From assembly GCA_017882455.1 (NCBI GenBank), contig JADGPL010000007.1:1-64000 (forward strand): a DNA stretch of 64,000 bases, given 5' to 3'. A program made the position numbers and the translations under genes. Within the stretch, counting starts at the first letter, position 1, and every line of letters begins with the position of its first letter. The stretch is from Solirubrobacteraceae bacterium (GTDB taxonomy: Bacteria; Actinomycetota; Thermoleophilia; Solirubrobacterales; Solirubrobacteraceae). Shown here in pieces: positions 322-13,868 of this stretch. The notes under the pieces are model-generated. The model worked only from the letters and a program-made list of their open reading frames with translations. It was not told the origin of the DNA and did no database searches.

Positions 322-2166
322 CTATTTCAGCGTCGCCTCGGACGCGGCCGGCGAGGTTCCCAGCAGCCTCCCGCCTGCGTCGAGCGCCTCGACCTCGACG
401 ACGGGACCCCGGACGCCCGCCGGCAGCTGGATCGAGGTCTCGAAGCCCGAACGCGGTGCTTCGGCGACCGCCTCGAGGGCTCCCGGAGCAGGTCCCGCGA
501 GAACCTTCCACGAGGCCACCTGCGTGGCACCGTTCCAGCTCGCATACACCGTCCCGGCGCCTGGGGCGCCGGCGGCGCCCGGAGCGCCCGGAGCGAAGGC
601 GAACGCCGGCGGATGTGCGGGGCTCCCCGTCCAGGCGAAGCGGAAGCTTCGATAGGACTGCACGTGCACGGGGAAGTGCGCGTCGAACAGGAGCGCGCCG
701 GCGGGGCTGTACTCCGAGAAGTCCGGTTCCTGACCCCATCCGAGGAACCAGTCGCCGTTGGCAAGCGCCTGGACATTGCCCTGGCTGTCGGCCACAAGCG
801 CCGGGGTGTGGGTGAGCTGGCTCACCAACGTGGCTGTCCCGGCCTGGGCGTTGAGACTCAAGACGATCCCCCGCGACTGCGGGTGGACGGTCGGCGAGGC
901 CCCGTTGTCGAAGAGGCTGATCAGCCCGCCTGGGAGCACGCGCGGATCGTGCTGATAGGCCGTGCTGGTGCCGGGGCCGGCCGTGAAGCTGCTCTTCCTG
1001 CCCCCGAGACGCCACACGATCTGCCCGCTGCGAGCGTCCACGTCATAGATGGCCCACGTGTTGCGAGCCGAGACCAGCAGGCTGCCGTCAGGGTCGAGGT
1101 TGATCGAGTTGATGTGGAAGAAGTCGAACGGCGTGCCGGTCGAGGAGATGTTGATGGGGGCGTAGGACTCCTCCAGGCCCACGTGGTCGAGGCTCGTCCA
1201 TTCGTACATCACCAGTCCCGTCTTCACGTCGATCTCCTGCAGCACGCCGTCGGTCAGGCCCGAGTAGGCCGGTCCGCCGACCGAGGAGAGGTTGCAGAGG
1301 ATCGGGTGATAGGCGGTTATGAGCGCGGTCCCGCTCGGCGTGAGCTGGAGCTCGTGCAGGTCCGCCTGATCGCCGTTGCCCGCCCTGATGTGAGCGATGT
1401 CCGTATAGCTGCTGTCTGCGATCACGTCCTCGCCGCGGCCGAAGCCGTGCACCGAGATGCCGCCCTGCCACCACGTGAGCACGGGCCTGCCGGCGTATTC
1501 CTGCACGCGGAAGCTGGTCGCCGAGGTGTAGCGGGGCAGCGCCTTGAACCACACGAGCCCTCCACCCTGGTCGAGGATCATCGGGCCGGCCTCGCCCGGG
1601 CCCGAGTACGGCGCCACGAACTCATCGCCCGGCGCCACGGCCGGTGAGGAGGCCGTCACAGATACCACCGGTGGCTGCAGGTCCGGGCGCGAGTGAAAGC
1701 TCTGGACTTCGGCGGCGCTGCCCGGGTGGATCGCCTCGGGCGTGGTGGTGAGAGGATCCTCATCTGCGATCCCGAACTGGTCGAGGATCGGTTGGGACGA
1801 GCCCCCGCTGCGCAGGCGGGCGCGCACCGTCACGCGCTCGCCTTCTGAGAACGGCCTCGCCGGCACGAAGCTCGCCCCGTCGCCCTGGGAGTAGGAGAGC
1901 AGCCGTCCGGCGTGCACCCCGCTGCGCGAGCCCGTCACGCTGATCACGCTAATGTCAGCAGCTGGGACGCCGAGGAAGCTGATCTGGGTGGCCGGCGAGG
2001 CGTCGCGGCCGCCGGACACCGGCGACACCGTCACTGATCCGGCCTTTATCGCCGAGCTGTTCAATGTCGCCGGCGTGCACGTCGGGCCGACGAGCGCCGC
2101 AGGTGCCGCGGCAGCGGCAGGCCCCAAGGCCAAGGCAACCCCCGGCCCTAGGATGAGAGCGCGCAT
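322..2166 (-). CDS. Secreted arylsulfotransferase-like protein (ASST paralog 1)
   Basis: 614 aa from the chosen ATG. Residues 1-25 look like a Sec signal peptide. Residues about 45-120 form an Ig-like N-terminal domain, about 155-510 the beta-propeller ASST domain (Arylsulfotrans_2 type), and about 538-610 a fibronectin-III-like tail containing YASWNGAT. Family enzymes transfer a sulfuryl group from a phenyl sulfate donor to a phenol through a histidine outside the cytoplasm. Three conserved His motifs are present: LHE (H271), H351-I-N353 followed by R368, and QHD (H406); their order matches the active-site His/Asn/Arg residues known from E. coli-type ASST. The start codon overlaps the ATG of the divergent sulfatase gene; an ATG 9 bases upstream (2175) is an alternative. 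No clear Shine-Dalgarno. Substrates are unknown. Confidence 0.85.
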   Translation of the reverse strand: MRALILGPGVALALGPAAAAAPAALVGPTCTPATLNSSAIKAGSVTVSPVSGGRDASPATQISFLGVPAADISVISVTGSRSGVHAGRLLSYSQGDGASFVPARPFSEGERVTVRARLRSGGSSQPILDQFGIADEDPLTTTPEAIHPGSAAEVQSFHSRPDLQPPVVSVTASSPAVAPGDEFVAPYSGPGEAGPMILDQGGGLVWFKALPRYTSATSFRVQEYAGRPVLTWWQGGISVHGFGRGEDVIADSSYTDIAHIRAGNGDQADLHELQLTPSGTALITAYHPILCNLSSVGGPAYSGLTDGVLQEIDVKTGLVMYEWTSLDHVGLEESYAPINISSTGTPFDFFHINSINLDPDGSLLVSARNTWAIYDVDARSGQIVWRLGGRKSSFTAGPGTSTAYQHDPRVLPGGLISLFDNGASPTVHPQSRGIVLSLNAQAGTATLVSQLTHTPALVADSQGNVQALANGDWFLGWGQEPDFSEYSPAGALLFDAHFPVHVQSYRSFRFAWTGSPAHPPAFAFAPGAPGAAGAPGAGTVYASWNGATQVASWKVLAGPAPGALEAVAEAPRSGFETSIQLPAGVRGPVVEVEALDAGGRLLGTSPAASEATLK

Positions 2167-3991
2167 GGAGACCATCGATCCGAAAGAGCATAAGAGAGTC
2201 GACCGGCGCACGTTCCTGAAGACGGGACTGATCGCCGGTGGCGCCATCGCCGGCGTCGGCCTCGGGATCAAGGCGGTGGCCGACACCACGAGCGAGTCGA
2301 GCTCCAAATCGGTCCCCACGCCTCGAGCCGCGCCGGCCGCTCCGGCGCTCAGCAGCGACAAGCCGAACATCCTGGTGATCGTCGTCGACCAGCTGCGATT
2401 CCCGCAGTGGTTCTCACCCACTCCGCTCGGGCTCGCGCTGCCACCCAACATCGCGCGCCTGCGCCGCGGCGCGGTCTCCTTCGCCCGGCACTACACGGCC
2501 TCCAACGACTGCACGCCCGCGCGCGCCACGCTGCTGACGGGCCTCTACACCCACCAGACCGGCTGCATGATCACCGGCGGCAGCACGCTGGACCCCGGCT
2601 TCCCCACGTGGGGCACGCTGCTGCGCGAGCACGGCTACCACACCCGCTGGTTCGGCAAGTGGCACCTGACCCACCGGGACAACCACTGGAACGCCCTCTC
2701 CGGGGAACGGGCGCTCGAGCGCTACGGCTTCGCGGGCGGCGTCTACCCCTCGCCCGACGGTGGGCCCGGCCAGGGCTGGCACACCGACCCCAAGATCGCC
2801 GGCGCGTTCGCGGACTGGTTCAAGCAGGAGGGCGGCGCCGAGCCGTGGTGCACCACGGTGTCCTTCGTCAACCCGCACGACATCGCCTGGTGGTATCGCT
2901 GGAGCGAGCGCGTCCCGGCCGAGGCCTCGGCCCGTCCGACCGTGCGCAGCCTGCCGCCCAACTACGAGACGCCCGAACTGCTCGACGAGCGCCACAAGCC
3001 GCGCCTGCAGCGCTCGCTGCAGGAAACCGCCGCCGCATCCTTCGGGCCTGTGCCGTTCAGCGGTCCCGAATCCGAACCTCAGTGGCTCTCCTTCCTCGAT
3101 CTCTATCTCAAGCTCCAACGCGAGGTCGACAGGCACGTCGGCCACGTCCTGCGCACGCTCGCGAGCAATCCCAAGGTCGCCGCCAACACGGTGGTCGTGT
3201 TCACCTCAGACCACGGCGAGTACGGCGCCTCGCACGGCCTGCGTGGCAAGGGCGCAAGCGGCTATGAGGAGGCGATACGCGTCCCACTGATCGTCAAGGA
3301 CAAACGGGGAGCGCTCACGAGCGCCACCGCACGACCGCGCACGCAGCTCAGCTCGAGCGTCGATATCGCCCCGATGCTGCTGACCATCGCCACCGGCTCC
3401 TCGGCATGGCGCAGCGAGGGCCACTACTCCCACCTCGCCCCTCGGCTCGACCTGGCCCGCATCCTCACCGACCCCCAAGCGCCCGGGCGCCCCTACGTTC
3501 TGCACGCAACCGACGAGATCGTGACCGAGTTCGCGACCGAGACCTACCAGGCACCCCTGCACGTCGTGGCGATGCGCACCCCCGAAGCCAAGTATGCGAC
3601 GTACTCCAACTGGCCCAAGGAAGGGATAACCCCCGAATCGCGGGGCGAGGAAAGCGAGCTCTACGACTACAGCACGCAGACGGGGCGGATGGAGCTCCAC
3701 AACAGCGCCGGCGAAAGCCCGCTCGAGTCCTCGCTGCGCGAACAGCTCGATCACGCCTTCCACTCCGAGCTGCGCGGGCCGCTGCCGCCGCGCCTGACCG
3801 AAGCGCACGCGGGCGGCTTCGCCGACTACTTCTCGACAGCGCGCACCGCGGCCGAGAGCGCCACCCTACGGCGCCGGCTCCGCGAGGAACGGGGCGGCCC
3901 CCCGACCGCTACCACTCCCGAAACCGAAGACTCCCTGGCCCCCCAGCGAGGTCGCCGGGCTAGGCGCGGGCGGCGGGGGAAACGCCCATGA
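2165..3991 (+). CDS. Tat-exported type I (formylglycine) sulfatase
   Basis: 608 aa. The N-terminus has a twin-arginine signal (DRRTFLK at 13-19 followed by a glycine/alanine-rich hydrophobic stretch), so it is probably exported folded. The alkaline-phosphatase-fold sulfatase domain starts near residue 66 (NILVIVVDQLR). C116-TPAR is the sulfatase signature whose cysteine is converted to formylglycine; GKWHL and TSDHGEYG (near residue 350) add metal and active-site residues. It would hydrolyse sulfate esters outside the membrane. No formylglycine-generating enzyme is in the window. It sits among five sulfotransferase-like genes, head to head with one and convergent with the next (32-base overlap of 3' ends), which makes its last residues very Arg-rich. 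An in-frame ATG at 2153 is an alternative start, but the Tat motif fits the chosen one. Confidence 0.9.
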   Translation: METIDPKEHKRVDRRTFLKTGLIAGGAIAGVGLGIKAVADTTSESSSKSVPTPRAAPAAPALSSDKPNILVIVVDQLRFPQWFSPTPLGLALPPNIARLRRGAVSFARHYTASNDCTPARATLLTGLYTHQTGCMITGGSTLDPGFPTWGTLLREHGYHTRWFGKWHLTHRDNHWNALSGERALERYGFAGGVYPSPDGGPGQGWHTDPKIAGAFADWFKQEGGAEPWCTTVSFVNPHDIAWWYRWSERVPAEASARPTVRSLPPNYETPELLDERHKPRLQRSLQETAAASFGPVPFSGPESEPQWLSFLDLYLKLQREVDRHVGHVLRTLASNPKVAANTVVVFTSDHGEYGASHGLRGKGASGYEEAIRVPLIVKDKRGALTSATARPRTQLSSSVDIAPMLLTIATGSSAWRSEGHYSHLAPRLDLARILTDPQAPGRPYVLHATDEIVTEFATETYQAPLHVVAMRTPEAKYATYSNWPKEGITPESRGEESELYDYSTQTGRMELHNSAGESPLESSLREQLDHAFHSELRGPLPPRLTEAHAGGFADYFSTARTAAESATLRRRLREERGGPPTATTPETEDSLAPQRGRRARRGRRGKRP

Positions 3992-5810
3992 CGGCGCCCG
4001 TGGCGTCCAGCGCCTGCACCGCCACGTAGGGCGCGCTCGAACCTGCGGGCAGGGTGATCGCGGTCTCGAAGCCGGTCCTGGGGGTGGCGCTCAGCGGCTT
4101 CACGCTCGTGGGCGAGGAGCCGGCCAGCACCCGCCAGGAGGCGACGCCGGTGGCGCCGTTCCAGCTGGCATAGATCCTCGCCCCGTGCGCGCCCGCCGCC
4201 GGCACGACCGCCAGCGCAGGCGGCCCGCTCGGGCGCCCGCTCCACGGCAGTCGATAGGCGCGGTAGGACTCATAGGCGGCCGGGAGATGCGCACCGAAGA
4301 GCAGCTGGCCGCTCGCCGAGGATTCCGAGAGGTAGGGCTCCTCTCCCCAGCCGACCATCCAATCGCCCTGGGCAAGCGCCTGCACGTTGCCCTGGCTGCC
4401 CGCCACCAGCGCCGGCGCGTGCTGCTCGGAGCGCACGAGCGTGGCGGTCATGCGCCCCATGTCCAGGCGCAACTGGATCGCCCGCGACTGCGGGTGCTTG
4501 CGCGGGGTGGCGCCGTTGTCGAAGAAGGTGATCGTGCCATCGGGCTGCTGGCGCGCGTCGTGCTGGAAGGCCGTGCGAGTGCCGGGACCCATGGCGAAGC
4601 TCGAGCGCCTGCCCCCCAGGCGCCAGCCCACGATCCCCGTGTGCGGATCCACGTCGTAGGCCGCCCAGGTGTTGCGCGAGTCGACCAGCAGGGTTCCGTC
4701 CTGCTGCACGTCGATCGAGTTGATGTGGAAGTAGTCGAACGGCGTGATCTGGCTGGAGTGGGCCGCCGACACATAGGCTTCGCCGAGGGCCACGTGATCG
4801 AGCGCGTGCCACTCGTACATCACCAGTCCCGTCTTCAGGTCGATCTCCTGCAGCAGCGTGTCCGCCACCGCCGCCCTGGGCGAGCCGCCCACCGATGAGA
4901 GGTCGCAATCGATCCCCGCGTAGACCGTGATCAGGGCGGTTCCCTGCGGGGTGATCTGGAATTCGTGCAGGTCGGGCTGGTAGCCGTTGCCGGCGCGGGC
5001 GATCGCGATGTCCTGGTAGGAGCCGTTCGCGATCACCTCGCCCGCCTTGCTGCTCCCGCCGGCGATGAGCGGGTCCTGCCACCACGTCAGCACCGGCTGG
5101 CCTTCGTATTGCTGCACGCGGAAGTCCGCCGCACGAGTGCCGCTTGGCGAGAGCGGCTCGAACCACACGAGCTGCCCGCTTTCGTCGAGGATCATCGGCC
5201 CGTACTGGCCCGGTCCGGAGTAGGGCGCGAGGAAGATGTCCCCGGCGCTGGCCGCCGGCGAGCGCACCGTCACGGTCACGAGCGGCGGCCTGAGGTCGGG
5301 GCGTGAGTGGAAGCTCTGGTAGTCGCTCGGGTCCGAGCGCGGCGTGGAGCTGCCGCCCGCTTCCCCGGCCCTGTCCGGCGTGGCCACGATGAAGCTCCAG
5401 GCGAACGGGACCGCCTGTCCTCCCGTCTGCAGCTGCGCGCGAACGCTCACCCGCTCGCCCGCCGCGAAGGGGCTGCTCGGCACGAAGCTCGCCCCGTCGC
5501 CCTGCGAGTAGGCGAGCAGCCGACCGGCGTGTGCGCCCGTGCGCGAGCCGCTGACCGTCACGCCCGTCAGCTCGCCCGCGGGCACGCCCAGCATGCTGAT
5601 CTGCGTGGCCGCCGAGGCGTCCCTCGTTTCAGGCCCGGGCGAGACCGTCACGCGCGAGCCGGCCAGCGCCGCCGAGACGTTCAGGTGCGAGGGAACACAG
5701 CTGACCGGCGCCGAGGCCGCCGCGGCCCGGGCCCGGGCAGGATCCGAGACACCGCCGAGGAGACCACCCAGCATGGCGAGCGACACTCCACCGGCGAGCA
5801 GGACACGCAT
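3960..5810 (-). CDS. Secreted arylsulfotransferase-like protein (ASST paralog 2)
   Basis: 616 aa with a signal peptide (about 1-30), N-terminal Ig-like domain (about 50-140), ASST beta-propeller (about 165-525) and C-terminal FN3-like domain with YASWNGAT. Active-site-like motifs are LHE (H282), H362-I-N364, R379 and QHD (H417). It is the closest in layout to paralog 1 (shared stretches such as SYSQGDGASFVP and YQSFHSRPDL-like). It likely acts outside the membrane as a phenol sulfotransferase; donor and acceptor are unknown. The start lies 15 bases downstream of the stop of paralog 3, so the two are probably co-transcribed. The 3' end overlaps the sulfatase gene. Confidence 0.85.
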   Translation of the reverse strand: MRVLLAGGVSLAMLGGLLGGVSDPARARAAAASAPVSCVPSHLNVSAALAGSRVTVSPGPETRDASAATQISMLGVPAGELTGVTVSGSRTGAHAGRLLAYSQGDGASFVPSSPFAAGERVSVRAQLQTGGQAVPFAWSFIVATPDRAGEAGGSSTPRSDPSDYQSFHSRPDLRPPLVTVTVRSPAASAGDIFLAPYSGPGQYGPMILDESGQLVWFEPLSPSGTRAADFRVQQYEGQPVLTWWQDPLIAGGSSKAGEVIANGSYQDIAIARAGNGYQPDLHEFQITPQGTALITVYAGIDCDLSSVGGSPRAAVADTLLQEIDLKTGLVMYEWHALDHVALGEAYVSAAHSSQITPFDYFHINSIDVQQDGTLLVDSRNTWAAYDVDPHTGIVGWRLGGRRSSFAMGPGTRTAFQHDARQQPDGTITFFDNGATPRKHPQSRAIQLRLDMGRMTATLVRSEQHAPALVAGSQGNVQALAQGDWMVGWGEEPYLSESSASGQLLFGAHLPAAYESYRAYRLPWSGRPSGPPALAVVPAAGAHGARIYASWNGATGVASWRVLAGSSPTSVKPLSATPRTGFETAITLPAGSSAPYVAVQALDATGAVMGVSPAARA

Positions 5811-5825
5811 GGCAGGGGGCCGGCC

Positions 5826-7640
5826 TCAGGCCTTGACCGTCGGCGAGACCGCGATCACGGCACCCGAGGCGTCAAGCGCCTGAACGGCCACGTATGGCCC
5901 GGGGGAGGGTGCCGCGATGTTGCTCTGAAAGCCGCTCTTGGCGGCCGTGGCGACCGCTGCGAGCGCACCGGCGGAGCGGCCCGCGAGCACCCGCCAGGAG
6001 GACACGCTCGTCGCCCCGTTCCAGCTCACCGCCACCGCCAGCGCACCCGCGGCCGACTTGGCGATGACCGACGGCGCGGTCCTCGGCTGCCCGCTCCAGG
6101 GGGACAGGTAGGTCCTGAAGTCCTGCACGTTCTTGCCGAGCGTGCCGTCGAGCAGGACGTGGCCCGCGGTGTCGTACTCGGTGAAGTTGGGCAGGCCGCC
6201 ATAGCCCATCAGCCAGTCGCCCCCGGGGAGGCTGAGGGTGTTGCCCTGGCTGGTGGCCAGCAGCGTCCTCGAGGGGTTCACGAACTGCTTGACCAGGCTC
6301 ACGGTGTGGCTCGCCGTGTCCGCCTTCAACAGCAGCCCGCGCGACTGCTTCTCCTTGGGCGGGTCCGAGCCGTTGTCGAACACCGAGATCAGCCCGTCGG
6401 GCTGGAACTCGGCGTCGTGCTGCCAGTAGAACCGTGTTCCCGGCCCCTGTCTGAAGCTGCTGTGCGAGCCACCGAGACGCCAGCGGATGGCGCCGCTGTG
6501 GATGTCCACGTCATACAGCGCCCAGGTGCTGCGCGCGGAGAGCAGAACATCGCCAGCCGGTCCCGGGTCGACGGAGTTGACGTGGATGTAGTCCCACGGC
6601 GAGCTCGAATGCGAGATCGGTTTGAGCGATTCGCTGACCGGGACGTGGCCCAGGGCGTGCCACTCCCACATGACCAGACCGGTCTTGATGTCGATCTCCT
6701 GCACGACAGAGTCGGTGAGCACTCCTGCCGCCGAGCCGTGGATCGAAGACAGGTTCATCTCGATCGGGTCGAACATGTCGATCCATGCGGTGCCGTTGGA
6801 GGACAGGCGGATCTCGTGCAGGTCGGCGTGGTAGCCGTTTCCCGCCCGGACCCTTGCAACGGGCTGGTAGGAGGTGTCGTAGATCTCATCTTCGCCCTGC
6901 CCGAAGCCGACTTCGAGGATGCGTCCCTGCCACCAGGTCAGCACGGGCCTGCCTTCGTATTGCTGGACCTCGAAGTTGGTTGCGGCCTCACCGGCCGGCA
7001 GCGGGTGAAACCACACCAGACCGCCGTTCTGTTCGGTGATCATCGGCCCCGCGATGCCCTCGCCCTGGTAGGGGGCGAGAAAGAGATCGCCCGGCGCCGC
7101 GCCTGTCTTGGCGGGTGTCGTGATGTGCACGGTCGAGGGCGTGAGCGAGGGCGCAGAGCTGTAGTGCTGGACGGCCTGCGGGTCGCCCGGGTTGATCGGG
7201 AACTGCTTCTGGCTGATCGGTGCCTGGCGGGCGATCGTGAAGGACGTGCGCGCCTGCGTCGTGGAGCCGGCCGAGGTGACCGTCGCGCTGACGCTCACGC
7301 GCTCGCCCGCCGCAAACGGGTGAGACGGCAGGAAGCTCTCGCCGGTGCCCGTCGAGTAGGCGCGCAGGGCGCCAGCGTGACTGCCGCTGTGCGAGCCGAC
7401 CACATGGACATTCGACACCTGCGTGGCCGCCGTGCCCAGGAAGCTGATCTGCGTGCCCGGCGAGGCGTCCGGCGTCCCGGGCTGCGGCGAGACCGCAACC
7501 GGGTTGGCGACCGCGATGCTCGCCGTGCGTTCCCCCGTCACCACCGCCTGGCTGGCGGAGGACGTGCCGCCGGCGCAGGCTGCGAGCGCGGCGGCGCCGA
7601 GCGGGACGGCCAGGCAGGAGAAGATGACCTTCAGCTTCAT
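5826..7640 (-). CDS. Lipoprotein arylsulfotransferase-like protein (ASST paralog 3)
   Basis: 604 aa from ATG 7640. The N-terminus is a classical lipoprotein signal ending in LAAC with the lipidated cysteine at C22, so unlike paralogs 1, 2 and 5 this one should be anchored to the outer face of the membrane. Ig-like domain about 45-140, propeller about 155-515, FN3-like tail to the end. Motifs LHE (H275), H353-V-N355, R370 and QHD (H408) are all kept. An upstream in-frame TTG (7655) would add five residues before the lipoprotein signal and is less likely. It follows the MFS-ASST fusion gene by 112 bases and is 15 bases ahead of paralog 2, which suggests one transcript for the three. Confidence 0.85.
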   Translation of the reverse strand: MKLKVIFSCLAVPLGAAALAACAGGTSSASQAVVTGERTASIAVANPVAVSPQPGTPDASPGTQISFLGTAATQVSNVHVVGSHSGSHAGALRAYSTGTGESFLPSHPFAAGERVSVSATVTSAGSTTQARTSFTIARQAPISQKQFPINPGDPQAVQHYSSAPSLTPSTVHITTPAKTGAAPGDLFLAPYQGEGIAGPMITEQNGGLVWFHPLPAGEAATNFEVQQYEGRPVLTWWQGRILEVGFGQGEDEIYDTSYQPVARVRAGNGYHADLHEIRLSSNGTAWIDMFDPIEMNLSSIHGSAAGVLTDSVVQEIDIKTGLVMWEWHALGHVPVSESLKPISHSSSPWDYIHVNSVDPGPAGDVLLSARSTWALYDVDIHSGAIRWRLGGSHSSFRQGPGTRFYWQHDAEFQPDGLISVFDNGSDPPKEKQSRGLLLKADTASHTVSLVKQFVNPSRTLLATSQGNTLSLPGGDWLMGYGGLPNFTEYDTAGHVLLDGTLGKNVQDFRTYLSPWSGQPRTAPSVIAKSAAGALAVAVSWNGATSVSSWRVLAGRSAGALAAVATAAKSGFQSNIAAPSPGPYVAVQALDASGAVIAVSPTVKA

Positions 7641-7752
7641 GATCACGGCGAGCAACCTACAGCCCCGGCCGGGTGGCCTGCGCCGGTCGCGCAGACGACC
7701 GTCCGCGAGCCCTTCGCCTGCGTCGCGAGGAGCACGGTGGAGGGACGGATCA

Positions 7753-10722
7753 TCATCGGGCCGCCCCCGGGAACGGCTGGGAGGCTCCGATCACGCGACC
7801 GCCCGTTCCGAGCGCCTGGACCTCGAAGCTCTTGTAGCTCTGCGGCACCGGTATCGCCGTCTCGAAACCGGACTTGGCCTGGGTCGCCACTGCGGTCAGC
7901 CGGCCGGCGGCCCCTGCGGCCAGGACCCTCCACGAGACGACCCGGGTGGCGCCGTTCCAGCTCGCGTACACGGTGGTCTTGGCGCCCGTCTGGCGGGCGG
8001 CGCCCACGGGAGCGGAGAGCGGCAGGCCGACCCACTGCTCGAGCGTCGCCCGGTAGGTGAGGTCGGGCCCGGGGAGTTCTCCCTGAAGGAGCAGCTTGCC
8101 GGAGCGGCTGTACTCCGAGAGGTACGGTTCGGATCCCCAGCCGACGAACACGTTGCCGTTCGCCAGCGGCTGCGTGTCCCCCATGTATTCCGATTCGAAC
8201 TCGTCCTCGCCCTTGTACTGGGACACGAGCGTCGCCGTGTGAGCGCCCTGGTCCAACTTGAGCACGAGCCCACGAGATGGCCCCGTAGCCGGGACGGAGG
8301 TCCCTCCACCGGTCAGCTGGCAGCAGTGATCGTCGAACATCGTCACCGTCGAGTCGCCTTCGAGCCTCGCGTCGTGCTGCCACTGGAAGGCGGCCCCCGG
8401 GCCGAACTTGAAGCTCGAGCGCTTGCCGCCGAGCGTCCACTCGATCCTGCCGGTGGCGATGTCGATGAGGTAGGCGCCCCAGGTGTTGCGCATCGAGACG
8501 AGGAACGTTCCGTTGCCGGTCAGGTCGATCGCGTTGACGTGGTAGGCGTCCCAGGGAAACCCGTTGGTCGGCAGCGAGGCCTGGGCCTCGCTCAGGGGAA
8601 TGTGCTCGAGCGCGTCCCAGTTGCGCAGGAGCTTGCCCGTCTTGAGGTTGTACTCCTGGACCGCCGAGTCGACCAGCGCGCCGTTGTAGGCGCCGCCGTA
8701 CTTGGAGAGGTCCATCGGGATGTTCTTGTTGGCGGTCACCCAGGCGTCTTCTCCGCTGATCAGGAACTCGTGGAGGGTGAGGACCCAGCCGTCCGTGGCC
8801 TTCAGCCTCGCGACCGCCTGGTAGTGCTGGTCGATGACCACGTCTTCGCCGGTTTCCGTCGCGCCGGTGTTCGTGACACGACCCTGCCACCAGGCCAACG
8901 CCGGCTTGCTCTGGTAGGTCTGCAGGCTGAGGTTGGCGGCGGCAACCCGTTCGGGCACGGGCTGGAACCAGACCGGCTGCAGGTTGTTGTCGAGGATCAG
9001 CGGGCCGCTCTGGCCGACGATCGGCGGTTCGTTGAGGTTGTAGAAGTTGGTGGTGAATATGTACCCCGGCGCCAGCTGCCCCGAGGCCGCCCGCTGGGTG
9101 CTGCGGATCATCGGCGGGTGAAGCGTGGGCGCCGTGACGTAGCTGTAGGCGTCGTCGGTGGTGTACCTGCCGATCGGAGCGCCGTGAGAGCCCGCGAACG
9201 CGGCGGTGAGCGCGACGAAGACCAGGAGAACCACGCCGGTCGCGAGCGCGAAGCGCCGAGCGGCCGCCACAAGCGTGGCGTCGGGCCGCGGGAGCGAGGT
9301 GAACGTGATCAGCGCCGCCGCCGCAGCCAACCCGGCGCCGATCAGGTACGCGAGCCGAAAGCCCGCGGTCAGCGCCGGCGCGACCTGCTGGCCTGAGCCG
9401 ATCAGATGGGTGGTGCGCTGGGTCGCGAACGTGATCAGCAGCGCAAGCCCGAGGCCGCCGCCGACCTGACGCGAGGTGTTGACGAGGCCCGATGCGAGCC
9501 CGGCCTGCCCCTCCTTGGCGCCCTGGGTGGCGGCGATCGTCGAGGGAACGATCGACATCGCGATCCCCGCCGCCGTGAGCACGCCGGGGATGACCACGTA
9601 GACGATCGGGCTGCCGCTCGCCCCGATCCTCGTGAACAGCAGCAGTCCGCCGGTGAGCATGATCAGCCCGCCGCCGAGCACCGGTCGCACGCCGTACTGG
9701 CTGACGAGCTTGCCTGCCCGCGAGGCGATGAGCATGATCGTCAAGGTCATCGGCAGGAATATGAGACCGGTGTGAAGCGGCGAGAGGCCCAGCACCTGCT
9801 GCAGATACAGAGAGCCCACGAACCACATCGGGAAGAGCGCCGCGCTGAACAGCAGGACGATCGTGTTGGCGGTCCTCAGCGGCTTGGTCAGCTCCTTGAA
9901 GGGGATCAGCGGCGCAGACGCCACGCGCGTCTCGATCGCGCCGAATGTCCCGAGCAGGATCAGGCCAAGCGCGATCGGGCCGAGCGCGGCGAACGTGCCC
10001 CAGCCCTTGAGGCCCGCTTCCACGACCCCGTACACGAGCACCATCTGACCGATCGTCAACGTAAGCGCGCCGGCGAGGTCGAAGCTCGCGCCCGCCTGCG
10101 CCCTGCGGCGTTCGCTCACGACCGCATAGGCCACCAGCGCTGCCCCGATCGCGATCGGCGGGTTGATCAAGAGGACCCAGCGCCAGCTGAGCACTTCGGT
10201 GATGATCCCGCCGAGCAGCACGCCAGCTGCGCCACCGAGCCCGTTCATCGCCGCCCAGATGGCGATCGCACGGTGGAGCTTCGGCCCCGGCGGAAACGAC
10301 CCCGTGATGATCGCCAGCGAGGTCGCGGCCATCAGGGCGCCGGCGAGGCCCTGCACCGCGCGAGCGCCGACGAGCACGACCTGATCGGGCGCGGCGCCCC
10401 CGGCCAGCGAGGCGAGCGCGAACAGGACCAGGGCGATGACGAGCGTCCGGCGCTGCCCGAAGTGATCGGCCGCGCGACCGCCGAACATCAGGAAGCCCGC
10501 GAACGTGATCGCATAGGCGTCGACGACCCATTGCAGGTCGGGCGAGGAGAAGCCAAGGCTCGACTGGATCGAGGGCAGCGCGACGTTGACGATGCTCAGG
10601 TCGAGGATGACCATGAACTGGGCCACGCAGCACACGGCCAGCAGCCACGCCGAACCTGAGCCCTTGCGCTCCTCGGGAGGTGTCTCGCTCAAACCCTGGG
10701 GCGCCGTCGCCCCAGCGCTCAT
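7753..10722 (-). CDS. MFS (DHA2) exporter fused to an arylsulfotransferase domain
   Basis: 989 aa in one uninterrupted frame. Residues about 22-480 are a 14-helix DHA2/EmrB-like drug exporter: LDLSIVNVALP at 40-50, QWVVDAY at 64-70, the loop 2-3 motif GGRAADHFGQRR at 81-92, and a glycine-rich motif C region near 161-172. A further hydrophobic helix at 491-511 leads into an ASST propeller and FN3-like tail (about 515-989), which would be outside the membrane. The catalytic-type motifs are intact: LHE (H651), H728-V-N730, R745, QHD (H783). The N-terminal Ig-like domain of the other paralogs is absent, so the transporter replaces it. Inference: the protein exports a phenolic or other aromatic compound and sulfates it on the outside. 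GTG at 10743 is an alternative start. This is either a true fusion or a very old one, since both halves keep their key residues. Confidence 0.88.
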   Translation of the reverse strand: MSAGATAPQGLSETPPEERKGSGSAWLLAVCCVAQFMVILDLSIVNVALPSIQSSLGFSSPDLQWVVDAYAITFAGFLMFGGRAADHFGQRRTLVIALVLFALASLAGGAAPDQVVLVGARAVQGLAGALMAATSLAIITGSFPPGPKLHRAIAIWAAMNGLGGAAGVLLGGIITEVLSWRWVLLINPPIAIGAALVAYAVVSERRRAQAGASFDLAGALTLTIGQMVLVYGVVEAGLKGWGTFAALGPIALGLILLGTFGAIETRVASAPLIPFKELTKPLRTANTIVLLFSAALFPMWFVGSLYLQQVLGLSPLHTGLIFLPMTLTIMLIASRAGKLVSQYGVRPVLGGGLIMLTGGLLLFTRIGASGSPIVYVVIPGVLTAAGIAMSIVPSTIAATQGAKEGQAGLASGLVNTSRQVGGGLGLALLITFATQRTTHLIGSGQQVAPALTAGFRLAYLIGAGLAAAAALITFTSLPRPDATLVAAARRFALATGVVLLVFVALTAAFAGSHGAPIGRYTTDDAYSYVTAPTLHPPMIRSTQRAASGQLAPGYIFTTNFYNLNEPPIVGQSGPLILDNNLQPVWFQPVPERVAAANLSLQTYQSKPALAWWQGRVTNTGATETGEDVVIDQHYQAVARLKATDGWVLTLHEFLISGEDAWVTANKNIPMDLSKYGGAYNGALVDSAVQEYNLKTGKLLRNWDALEHIPLSEAQASLPTNGFPWDAYHVNAIDLTGNGTFLVSMRNTWGAYLIDIATGRIEWTLGGKRSSFKFGPGAAFQWQHDARLEGDSTVTMFDDHCCQLTGGGTSVPATGPSRGLVLKLDQGAHTATLVSQYKGEDEFESEYMGDTQPLANGNVFVGWGSEPYLSEYSRSGKLLLQGELPGPDLTYRATLEQWVGLPLSAPVGAARQTGAKTTVYASWNGATRVVSWRVLAAGAAGRLTAVATQAKSGFETAIPVPQSYKSFEVQALGTGGRVIGASQPFPGAAR

Positions 10723-10825
10723 GACGGGCTGCCCAACTGCCACCGACCGTCAAGCCTCGACCGGCACCGCAAACGGTTGGTACGGTGAGCCCTCGTGTCC
10801 TCTAGCGACGATTGGATCCCGGCCC

Positions 10826-11017
10826 ATGAGAAGAACGCCACTGACCGCCATGCTAACCGCAGCGGCCGCGCTGGCAGCCACTGCCGCGGTGGCAGGGTGC
10901 GGCGGTAAAGGAGCGAACTCTTCCTCCACGCCGGCGACGAGCAGCACCCCCACGACCACGACGCCCACGACGCCCACGACGACAACGCACAAGCACAAGT
11001 CCAAACCGGCCTACTGA
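10826..11017 (+). CDS. Small threonine-rich lipoprotein
   Basis: 63 aa. A lipoprotein signal ends in VAGC (cysteine about residue 23), followed by a low-complexity Ser/Thr/Pro tail with repeated TTTTPTTP and a final His/Lys patch. No catalytic domain. It is the only plus-strand gene within the ASST block besides the sulfatase and is convergent with ASST paralog 5, whose stop is 9 bases away. Function unknown; similar tiny lipoproteins occur at 46606 in this window. Confidence 0.65.
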   Translation: MRRTPLTAMLTAAAALAATAAVAGCGGKGANSSSTPATSSTPTTTTPTTPTTTTHKHKSKPAY

Positions 11018-11026
11018 GCGGCCGGT

Positions 11027-12901
11027 TCACTGGAGCGAGGCGGCGTAGCTGATCACCCTGACCGTCTTTGACGTGCCGAGGACGTGGCCGGCTGAGTCGA
11101 GCGCCTGCACCGCCACATACACGTGCTTCACGGGCAGCGTTGTCGAGCTCTCGAAGCCGGTGGCCGGGATCTCGGCCTGAGCCTGCAGCGGCGATCCGAG
11201 GTGCTCGCTCGCAAGCACGCGCCAGGACGCGAGACCGGTGGCGCCGTTCCAGCTGGCGTGCACGATCGTCTCTTCGGCTGTGTTGTTGAGGCTGGCGAGG
11301 ACCGCCGGCGGGCTCAGCGGGCGCCCGCTCCAGGGGAAGCGGAAGGCACGGTAGAAGGACATGTCGAACGGCTGATGGGCGTCGAAGAGCAGCGCGCCGC
11401 CCTTGGCGTACTCGCTGATCGCCGGCACCCCGCCGTAGCCTACGAGCGTGTTCCCGTCCGCCAGTGTCTGCATGTTGCCCTGGCTTGCCGCGAGCAGTGG
11501 CGGGTCGGCGTGCGTGTAGACCGACGCGAGCTGCGCTTCACGGGTCCTGAGGTCGAGCTTGATGCGCACGGCACGCGACTGGCTGTGGATCGGCGGGTTC
11601 GAGCCATCGTCGAAGAAGGTGAGCTCGCCATTCGCAAGGACACGGCCGTCGTGCTGCCACGCCATGCTCGTGCCCGGCCCCATCTTGAAGGAGCTCTCAT
11701 TGCCGCCCAGGCGCCAGAGGACCTTGCCCGTGCCACCCTCCAGCTGATAGCCGGCCCACGTGCTGCGCGCCGAGATCAGGATGTTGCCATCCGGCTCTGG
11801 ATCGATCGAGTTGAGGTGGAAGTAGTCCCACGGCGTGGCATCGCTCGGCGCTTCGACTTCGGACTCAGAGGCGCCGATGTGATCCAGGCTGTGCCATTCC
11901 CAGCGCACGAGGCCGGTCCTCATGTCGATCTGCTGGATCGCGGTGTCGACGATCGCCCCGCCAGACTTGCCTTTGACCGGTCTGAGATCGCAACGGATCG
12001 GGTTGAACGCGGTGATGTAGGCGATGTCGTGCGGAGCGATCTGGAAGTCGTGCAGGTCCGCTTTGAGGCCGTTGCCGCCGGTGACCCTCGCGACCGTCTC
12101 GTAGTTGGAGCTCATGACGATGTCTTCGCCCTGCCCGAAGCCGAGCGAGAGCACGCGCCCCTTCCACCATGTGAGGTCGCGCTGGCCTTCATATGTCTGC
12201 TCGGACAGGTTCTCCGCTGTTTCGCCCCCTCCCAGCTCCTCGAACCAGACGAGTCGGCCCTGCGGTGTGTAGATCAGCGGTCCGTACCGACCGGGGCCTG
12301 GCCCGTTGGTCGTGAGGATGTCACCGGCGGCGGGATCGCGATCGGGCACGGTGACCGTCATCACCGGGGCCTGGACGCCGGGCAGGGTGTAGAAGCTCTG
12401 GTAGTCGGCGGGCGCCGCCTGTGCGTTGGGGAACTCCGGCGTCCTCGCCGTCCGATATGGCGTATCGACTCGAAACTGGAAGGCGACTCGCTTCGAGCCG
12501 ATCACAGCCCGCACGAAGACCTGCTCGCCGGGATCGAACGGCTCCTCGGGCACGAAGCTCGCGCCATCGCCCTGGAAGTACCCATGCACGTGACCGTGGT
12601 GCTCGCCCGATCTGGAGCCGAGGACCGAGACCTCCCGCACGTTCGTGGAGCTCGCGCCGAGGAAGCTGATCTGGGTGTCCGGGTTGGCCGTGTCGGTTTC
12701 CGGCGCGGGAGAGACATCGATGGCGGTGCCGGGCAGGCTCGCGCTGTGTGCGAGCGTCGCCGACAGGCAGGCGGGCGAGATCCGGCTCGCCTGTCGCGCC
12801 GTCCCCGAGCCGAAGACACCGAGGCTGGGAGAGCCGAGCACGATCGCGGCCACGGCCCATGCGAGCACCACGACCAGTAGGACGATGTATCGGTTTCGCA
12901 T
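11027..12901 (-). CDS. Membrane-anchored or secreted arylsulfotransferase-like protein (ASST paralog 5)
   Basis: 624 aa. Residues 5-22 form a hydrophobic helix without an obvious cleavage site, so it may be a signal anchor. Ig-like domain about 55-145, propeller about 165-525, FN3-like tail with HASWNGAT to the end. Motifs LHD (H284; Asp in place of the usual Glu), H362-L-N364, R379 and QHD (H417) are present. It is the most divergent of the secreted copies and is separated from the others by the small lipoprotein gene, so it probably has its own promoter in the 12902-13040 gap shared with the divergent gene at 13041. Confidence 0.83.
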   Translation of the reverse strand: MRNRYIVLLVVVLAWAVAAIVLGSPSLGVFGSGTARQASRISPACLSATLAHSASLPGTAIDVSPAPETDTANPDTQISFLGASSTNVREVSVLGSRSGEHHGHVHGYFQGDGASFVPEEPFDPGEQVFVRAVIGSKRVAFQFRVDTPYRTARTPEFPNAQAAPADYQSFYTLPGVQAPVMTVTVPDRDPAAGDILTTNGPGPGRYGPLIYTPQGRLVWFEELGGGETAENLSEQTYEGQRDLTWWKGRVLSLGFGQGEDIVMSSNYETVARVTGGNGLKADLHDFQIAPHDIAYITAFNPIRCDLRPVKGKSGGAIVDTAIQQIDMRTGLVRWEWHSLDHIGASESEVEAPSDATPWDYFHLNSIDPEPDGNILISARSTWAGYQLEGGTGKVLWRLGGNESSFKMGPGTSMAWQHDGRVLANGELTFFDDGSNPPIHSQSRAVRIKLDLRTREAQLASVYTHADPPLLAASQGNMQTLADGNTLVGYGGVPAISEYAKGGALLFDAHQPFDMSFYRAFRFPWSGRPLSPPAVLASLNNTAEETIVHASWNGATGLASWRVLASEHLGSPLQAQAEIPATGFESSTTLPVKHVYVAVQALDSAGHVLGTSKTVRVISYAASLQ

Positions 12902-13764: not shown

Positions 13765-13783
13765 CTGTTGCAAACGGACATAT

Positions 13784-13868
13784 GGCCCCCGCACCCGCAA
13801 TGGCCCCCGGACCCGCAATGGCCCCCGGACCCGCAATAGCCTCCGGACCCGCAATGGCCTCCGGACCT
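13784..13868. repeat. 18-bp tandem repeat (minisatellite)
   Basis: Four full and one partial copies of an 18-base unit, consensus GGCCCCCGGACCCGCAAT, with one to three changes per copy. It fills the gap between the palindromic repeat and the stop codon of the helicase gene. No coding function is visible; there are no spacers, so it is not a CRISPR array. Confidence 0.85.

Follow-up and report, generated by a model that had tools for sequence, protein, structure and literature searches.

Our analyses establish the fusion of an MFS exporter with an arylsulfotransferase (ASST) as a restricted protein family of some uncultured soil actinobacteria, and we propose, with a probability of roughly 55%, that it acts as a membrane-spanning sulfate relay, in which the DHA2-like half would export a sulfated carrier and the tethered ASST would spend it outside. 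The kinds of parts involved are already known, and the pathway logic resembles that of Cpz4, Cpz6 and Cpz8 in caprazamycin biosynthesis. What is new is that exporter and ASST form one covalent chain with the enzyme predicted outside, that this chain is conserved, and that its gene shares an operon with one for a PAPS-type sulfotransferase. The fusion, the topology signals, the fold, the catalytic residues and the linked genes can all be read from the sequence.

The window, that is, the whole stretch of 64,000 nucleotides of a Solirubrobacteraceae contig that was analysed, carries the following features (evidence in parentheses):

322..2451, minus strand: ASST paralog, true start probably further downstream (open frame, Pfam, ASST alignment)
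1952..3991, plus strand: sulfatase (PF00884) with a twin-arginine-like N-terminus and a CTPAR formylglycine-type motif (open frame, Pfam)
3960..5810, minus strand: ASST paralog (open frame, Pfam, ASST alignment)
5826..7655, minus strand: ASST paralog with an N-terminal beta-type domain and a secretory N-terminus (open frame, Pfam, ASST alignment)
7753..10722, minus strand: MFS-ASST fusion gene, 989 aa (open frame, Pfam, full-length conservation elsewhere)
7762..9156, minus strand: ASST beta-propeller, residues 523-987, Cpz4-like (structure match to Cpz4; PF14269)
8374..8376, minus strand: catalytic His783 of the QHD motif, equivalent to His436 of E. coli AssT (profile alignment to 3ELQ; invariant)
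8488..8490, minus strand: Arg745, equivalent to AssT Arg374 (profile alignment to 3ELQ; invariant)
8533-8535, minus strand: Asn730 of the HxN motif, equivalent to AssT Asn358 (profile alignment to 3ELQ; invariant)
8539..8541, minus strand: His728 of the HxN motif, equivalent to AssT His356 (profile alignment to 3ELQ; invariant)
8770..8772, minus strand: His651 of the LHE motif, putatively equivalent to His252 by order along the chain (ASST alignment; residue list of PMC13426309)
9196..9279, minus strand: 15th transmembrane helix, residues 482-509 (hydropathy, loop K+R in 35 homologs, model, alignment with secreted homologs)
9295..10659, minus strand: DHA2/EfpA-like MFS exporter, residues 22-476, 14 helices (AlphaFold2 helices; EfpA structure match; hydropathy and charge profile)
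11027..12901, minus strand: ASST paralog upstream of the fusion, matching Cpz4 at E 4e-88 (open frame, Pfam, Cpz4 comparison)

The fusion frame starts at an ATG and has no internal stop; an alternative GTG start at 10743, 21 bases upstream, would extend the product to 996 aa. The first-pass annotation had described one uninterrupted frame of 989 residues flanked by four ASST paralogs, and both points hold, the frame being open throughout 7753-10722 of the minus strand and all four paralogs lying on that same strand. Pfam assigned residues 32-425 of the protein to MFS_1 (E 5e-46) and residues 630-880 to Arylsulfotran_2 (PF14269, E ~1.5e-42), while the N-terminal ~110 residues of the four paralogs (322-12901) had no Pfam match. 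The sulfatase recurs next to the ASST cluster in sister loci. Further along, at 13782-13867, an 18-base tandem repeat of 4.8 copies lies just past the stop of a SNF2-type helicase gene.

The nearest solved structure to the exporter half is that of mycobacterial EfpA (MtEfpA 8ufd, Z 42.5 across residues 20-481), and hydropathy, AlphaFold2 and structure comparison agree on a 14-helix MFS fold. The closest NCBIfam models are those of the LmrA, EmrB/DHA2 and TcmA exporters, each of which scored under its curated cut-off; for the EmrB subfamily model TIGR00711 the score was 192.1 bits against a cut-off of 230.2, below what membership of the DHA2 subfamily calls for, and we therefore refer to the transporter as DHA2-like. 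Its predicted function is proton-driven export.

Hydropathy averaged across 35 homologs resolved 15 membrane segments. The exporter half thus has the complete set of 14 helices attributed to it by the first-pass annotation, but the whole frame has one more, which sits exactly at the MFS/ASST join and had been overlooked. Among the same 35 homologs the mean number of lysines and arginines per loop was 1.1-3.5 after even-numbered helices (inside) and 0-1.2 after odd-numbered ones (outside). The loop preceding helix 15 had a mean of 3.2, so that this helix is predicted to run outwards and to leave the propeller outside. An AlphaFold2 model built from 52 sequences contained the same 15 helices and the propeller (mean pLDDT 88.6, pTM 0.85). 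From the charge profile and the 15 helices, the ASST is predicted to be extracytoplasmic.

Among solved structures, the propeller is nearest to the caprazamycin enzyme Cpz4 (9kf6: 36% identity and rmsd 1.8 over 446 residues, Z 47.7), a second Cpz4 structure (9kf4) giving Z 46.7. Sequence similarity to E. coli AssT is weak, the ASST profile reaching it at E 4e-4 only. The active-site residues of AssT, including His436, the histidine that is transiently sulfated, were taken from the list compiled for the E. coli AST (PMC13426309). The LHE, HxN, Arg and QHD motifs noticed in the first pass are all present, and H651, H728, N730, R745 and H783 are invariant in an alignment of 17 ASST sequences; sulfo transfer from aryl sulfates is a predicted activity of this half. 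An adjacent cysteine pair, C800-C801 (8320-8325), lies 17 residues past the catalytic His783. This pair is invariant in 35 of 35 fusions and is also found in secreted standalone relatives, whereas it is absent from the Ig-type paralogs and from Cpz4.

Full-length fusions, 56-85% identical, recur in two taxonomic families of actinobacteria, in dozens of assemblies that are independent of one another. In the window's genus and its relatives, 18 other genomes encode a full-length fusion (67-85% identity) and two further partial copies lie at contig ends. Across the window's family 28 of 146 genomes carry it in full, namely the majority of those in genus g1, each of the four in g2 and six in g39, and no full-length fusion was found in the remaining genera among these 146. 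A scan of GTDB species contigs returned dozens of fusion loci, and 35 distinct fusion proteins from independent assemblies were used for alignment. In the second family, grouped around the genome that contains locus L073, the fusion occurs whole or in part in over one third of 32 genomes (taxon names here, Acidimicrobiaceae and others, are those given by the submitters), and three of these genomes (G861, G869, G860) hold two copies each. By comparison, in an even sample of the phylum (396 genomes) the fusion was present in the window genome only. The MFS-ASST fusion is therefore an established but restricted protein family.

These homologs also bear on whether the join is real. A sequencing or assembly error, feared in the first pass for positions 9180-9260, was rejected, as the frame is unbroken there and 35 distinct homologs read straight through the join. 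Nor do the homologs always occur as two separate genes, given the full-length fusions in both families. Apparent split genes (G136 C16/C297, G005, G001, L082 and L004) proved to be contig or locus ends and not natural splits, although real separate arrangements do exist, as unfused MFS genes amid ASST genes in G011, G012 and G016 and as secreted ASSTs in genus g39. A mobile or phage origin was also rejected: among 72,556 plasmid records no place covered 80% of the query, and the viral contigs held no relative of the fusion.

The gene neighbourhood is the main source of evidence on function. In the second family a PF17784-type sulfotransferase lies directly upstream of the fusion, on the same strand, in ten of the ten fusion loci compared, at 66-150 bp from the first aligned fusion residue; for L077 and L074, Pfam confirmed the assignment of this upstream gene. 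Of the 36 loci in the first set, many of which are cut by contig ends, 12 have a sulfotransferase within 4 kb of the fusion; some of the 12 coincide with loci of the second family or belong to its lineage. Fusion clusters with both a PF17784 sulfotransferase and a type III PKS occur in three genomes of the window's genus. The clearest layout is that of L152 (contig G006:C274, 13.9 kb), with ASST, MFS-ASST, ASST and sulfotransferase genes on one strand, followed by a divergent type III PKS and an APS kinase, the enzyme that yields PAPS. Related sets are present in L151, L153 and L194, and PKS, sulfotransferase and ASST are clustered in all four. In most genomes of the genus, the window's among them, the sulfotransferase-PKS pair is either carried by a different contig or falls beyond the region covered around the fusion. 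The pair of the window genome (L149 9110-11134, contig G000:C15) is on a contig separate from the fusion and consists of a type III PKS (367 aa, PF02797 and PF08392) and an adjacent, divergent PF17784 sulfotransferase. Fusion and pair co-occur by genome (16/21 versus 2/40, Fisher p 1e-8), an association that follows kinship and for that reason is not taken as proof, and a PF02797 type III PKS was not found in most of the second-lineage genomes checked. Single chains that combine a PF17784 sulfotransferase with a type III PKS were seen in L054 (8895-10580, 562 aa) and L154 (7633-9528, 631 aa). In some genomes, then, the two enzymes expected to produce the sulfate carrier are themselves joined.

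The reaction of an ASST depends on a donor, an aryl sulfate, and the neighbour that recurs is a cytoplasmic PAPS-type sulfotransferase, in some genomes accompanied by a type III PKS; this suggests that the fusion exports the donor and not the acceptor. Under the proposed relay, the sulfotransferase would make an aryl sulfate carrier inside the cell, in a role like that of Cpz8, and the DHA2-like half would export it, solving the exit of a charged aryl sulfate from the cell. Helix 15 would hold the propeller on the outer face, where it would take the sulfo group onto His783 and pass it to an acceptor outside the membrane, which may be a foreign phenol, a metabolite that the cell secretes or a polymer of its envelope. 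With this exported donor, the secreted ASSTs nearby, whose N-terminal parts all differ, could sulfate other acceptors. The direction of transport, the identity of the compound, its direct hand-over and the acceptor are what we infer in this scheme. In a more far-reaching version, put forward tentatively and judged less likely than not, the protein would be a single-chain sulfo relay with direct transfer of the sulfated carrier from transporter to propeller; it would then constitute the missing exporter of PAPS-independent sulfation and serve a general sulfation of the outer envelope or of secreted products in these soil actinobacteria.

The first-pass annotation had suggested instead that the chain sulfates aromatic compounds as they leave the cell. 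Its premises of an ASST placed outside, now by prediction, and of retained catalytic residues stand; the neighbouring genes, however, point to an exported donor. On this alternative, an exported phenol, antibiotic or toxic aromatic would be sulfated by the ASST on emerging, with donors supplied by another route, which would suit a DHA2/EfpA-like transporter, these being exporters of drugs, and the use of phenols as ASST acceptors (PMC13426309). We nevertheless consider it unlikely: the gene that recurs next to the fusion encodes the enzyme expected to supply the donor, that donor would still require an exporter of its own, and the neighbourhood shows no recurrent biosynthetic cluster from which an acceptor could come.

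In the MFS tree the fused transporters group together, apart from one contig-cut fragment, and their clade adjoins the unfused transporters located between ASST genes in three genomes of the same genus (G011, G012 and G016). The ASST tree unites the fused type with the g39 secreted type in a clade of support 100, far from the Ig-type paralogs, and the only standalone members of this clade have a signal peptide and no Ig-like domain. The earlier suggestion that the transporter had replaced the Ig-like domain of the paralogs therefore does not fit, and a domain swap from an Ig-type paralog was rejected. Multiple origins of the fusion were considered, as the ASST tree places the secreted forms inside the fused clade, but a single fused clade was not rejected (AU p 0.66). 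Helix 15 aligns with the signal peptide of the g39 secreted ASSTs, which are 53-55% identical to the fusion across the ASST part and have in common with it a motif, APIGxYTT...SAPxLHPP, after the helix; the exporter therefore appears, from these alignments, to have acquired an entire secretory pre-enzyme at its C-terminal side.

Such a history would also be compatible with a fusion that merely anchors or co-expresses two proteins with no substrate passed between them, or with a signal peptidase cut after helix 15 that frees the ASST. The window protein has AFA followed by GSHG at this point, some form of a small-x-Ala cleavage site is kept in 27 of 36 fusions, and standalone secreted ASSTs exist in the same clade. 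The site is missing, however, from the other nine, and the covalent join has been kept over a wide sequence range in two families, so that we judge this explanation improbable. Very improbable is a detoxification or scavenging role, in which the ASST would shift sulfo groups from soil aryl sulfates, the MFS half would clear phenols and the nearby sulfatase would free sulfate: a sulfatase does recur near the cluster in several loci and many source assemblies are environmental metagenome bins, but most fusion loci are without one, and the recurring partner, a PAPS-type sulfotransferase, works in the direction of synthesis.

The sulfate relay that we favour makes the fusion a specific exporter candidate for the supply of donors to extracellular ASSTs, amenable to a simple genetic and biochemical test, and, if true, might be turned into a tool for the extracellular production of sulfated compounds. 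The natural substrates and roles of ASSTs were described as poorly understood in a 2026 review (PMC13426309). Of the sulfotransferase-bearing clusters listed in a 2025 survey, just two contained a type III synthase, and none earlier than the survey's own example combined such a synthase with a dedicated PAPS cassette (PMC12135136). In line with the first-pass remark that no described enzyme is known to couple export and sulfation in one chain, searches of the open-access literature found no published description of an exporter-ASST fusion.

EfpA, QacA, EmrB and LmrA, as DHA2 drug exporters, have the same 14-helix MFS fold, to which the fusion adds one helix and a catalytic domain. AssT of E. 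coli CFT073 (3ELQ, PF05935) is likewise a propeller, with the ping-pong chemistry that is predicted for the fusion, and the equivalents of its His436, His356, Asn358 and Arg374 are conserved here; it differs in forming a homodimer in the periplasm, in having DsbL/DsbI and an N-terminal beta-sandwich of its own, and in lacking a transporter.

The closest parallel in pathway logic is caprazamycin, whose type III PKS Cpz6 makes pyrones (PMC6560455) that are sulfated by the PAPS-dependent Cpz8 and then serve as donors for Cpz4 (PMC4257720). The ASST half has the fold and catalytic residues of Cpz4, and related loci have a type III PKS and a PAPS-type sulfotransferase next to the ASST. The putative counterpart of Cpz8 is likened to it as a PAPS-type sulfotransferase, the PF17784 assignment being one made for the linked genes. 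Unlike the caprazamycin module, several fusion-bearing lineages are without a PKS, and the solved chain of Cpz4 (472 aa) has no MFS part, whereas the fusion unites exporter and ASST in one chain. Among 296 Streptomyces genomes sampled, no locus of a true Cpz4 ortholog was found (best 44% identity). Four Streptomyces-type loci with Cpz4-like genes (L168, L169, L171 and L172) have ASST, type III PKS and sulfotransferase in a row, the module families being confirmed for L168 alone, and are possible uncharacterised two-step sulfation clusters. No conserved MFS gene was found beside these modules, one locus having an ABC exporter and another a MacB/FtsX protein.

To our knowledge, no exporter has been assigned to the caprazamycin sulfate carrier. 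A precedent for the architecture is LplT-Aas, an MFS-enzyme fusion in which transporter and enzyme for the same metabolite form one chain. There the enzyme is on the inner face, whereas in MFS-ASST it is predicted outside and its chemistry would be sulfo transfer, which, if true, would make the fusion a rare example of a transporter whose fused enzyme sits at the exit side of the membrane.
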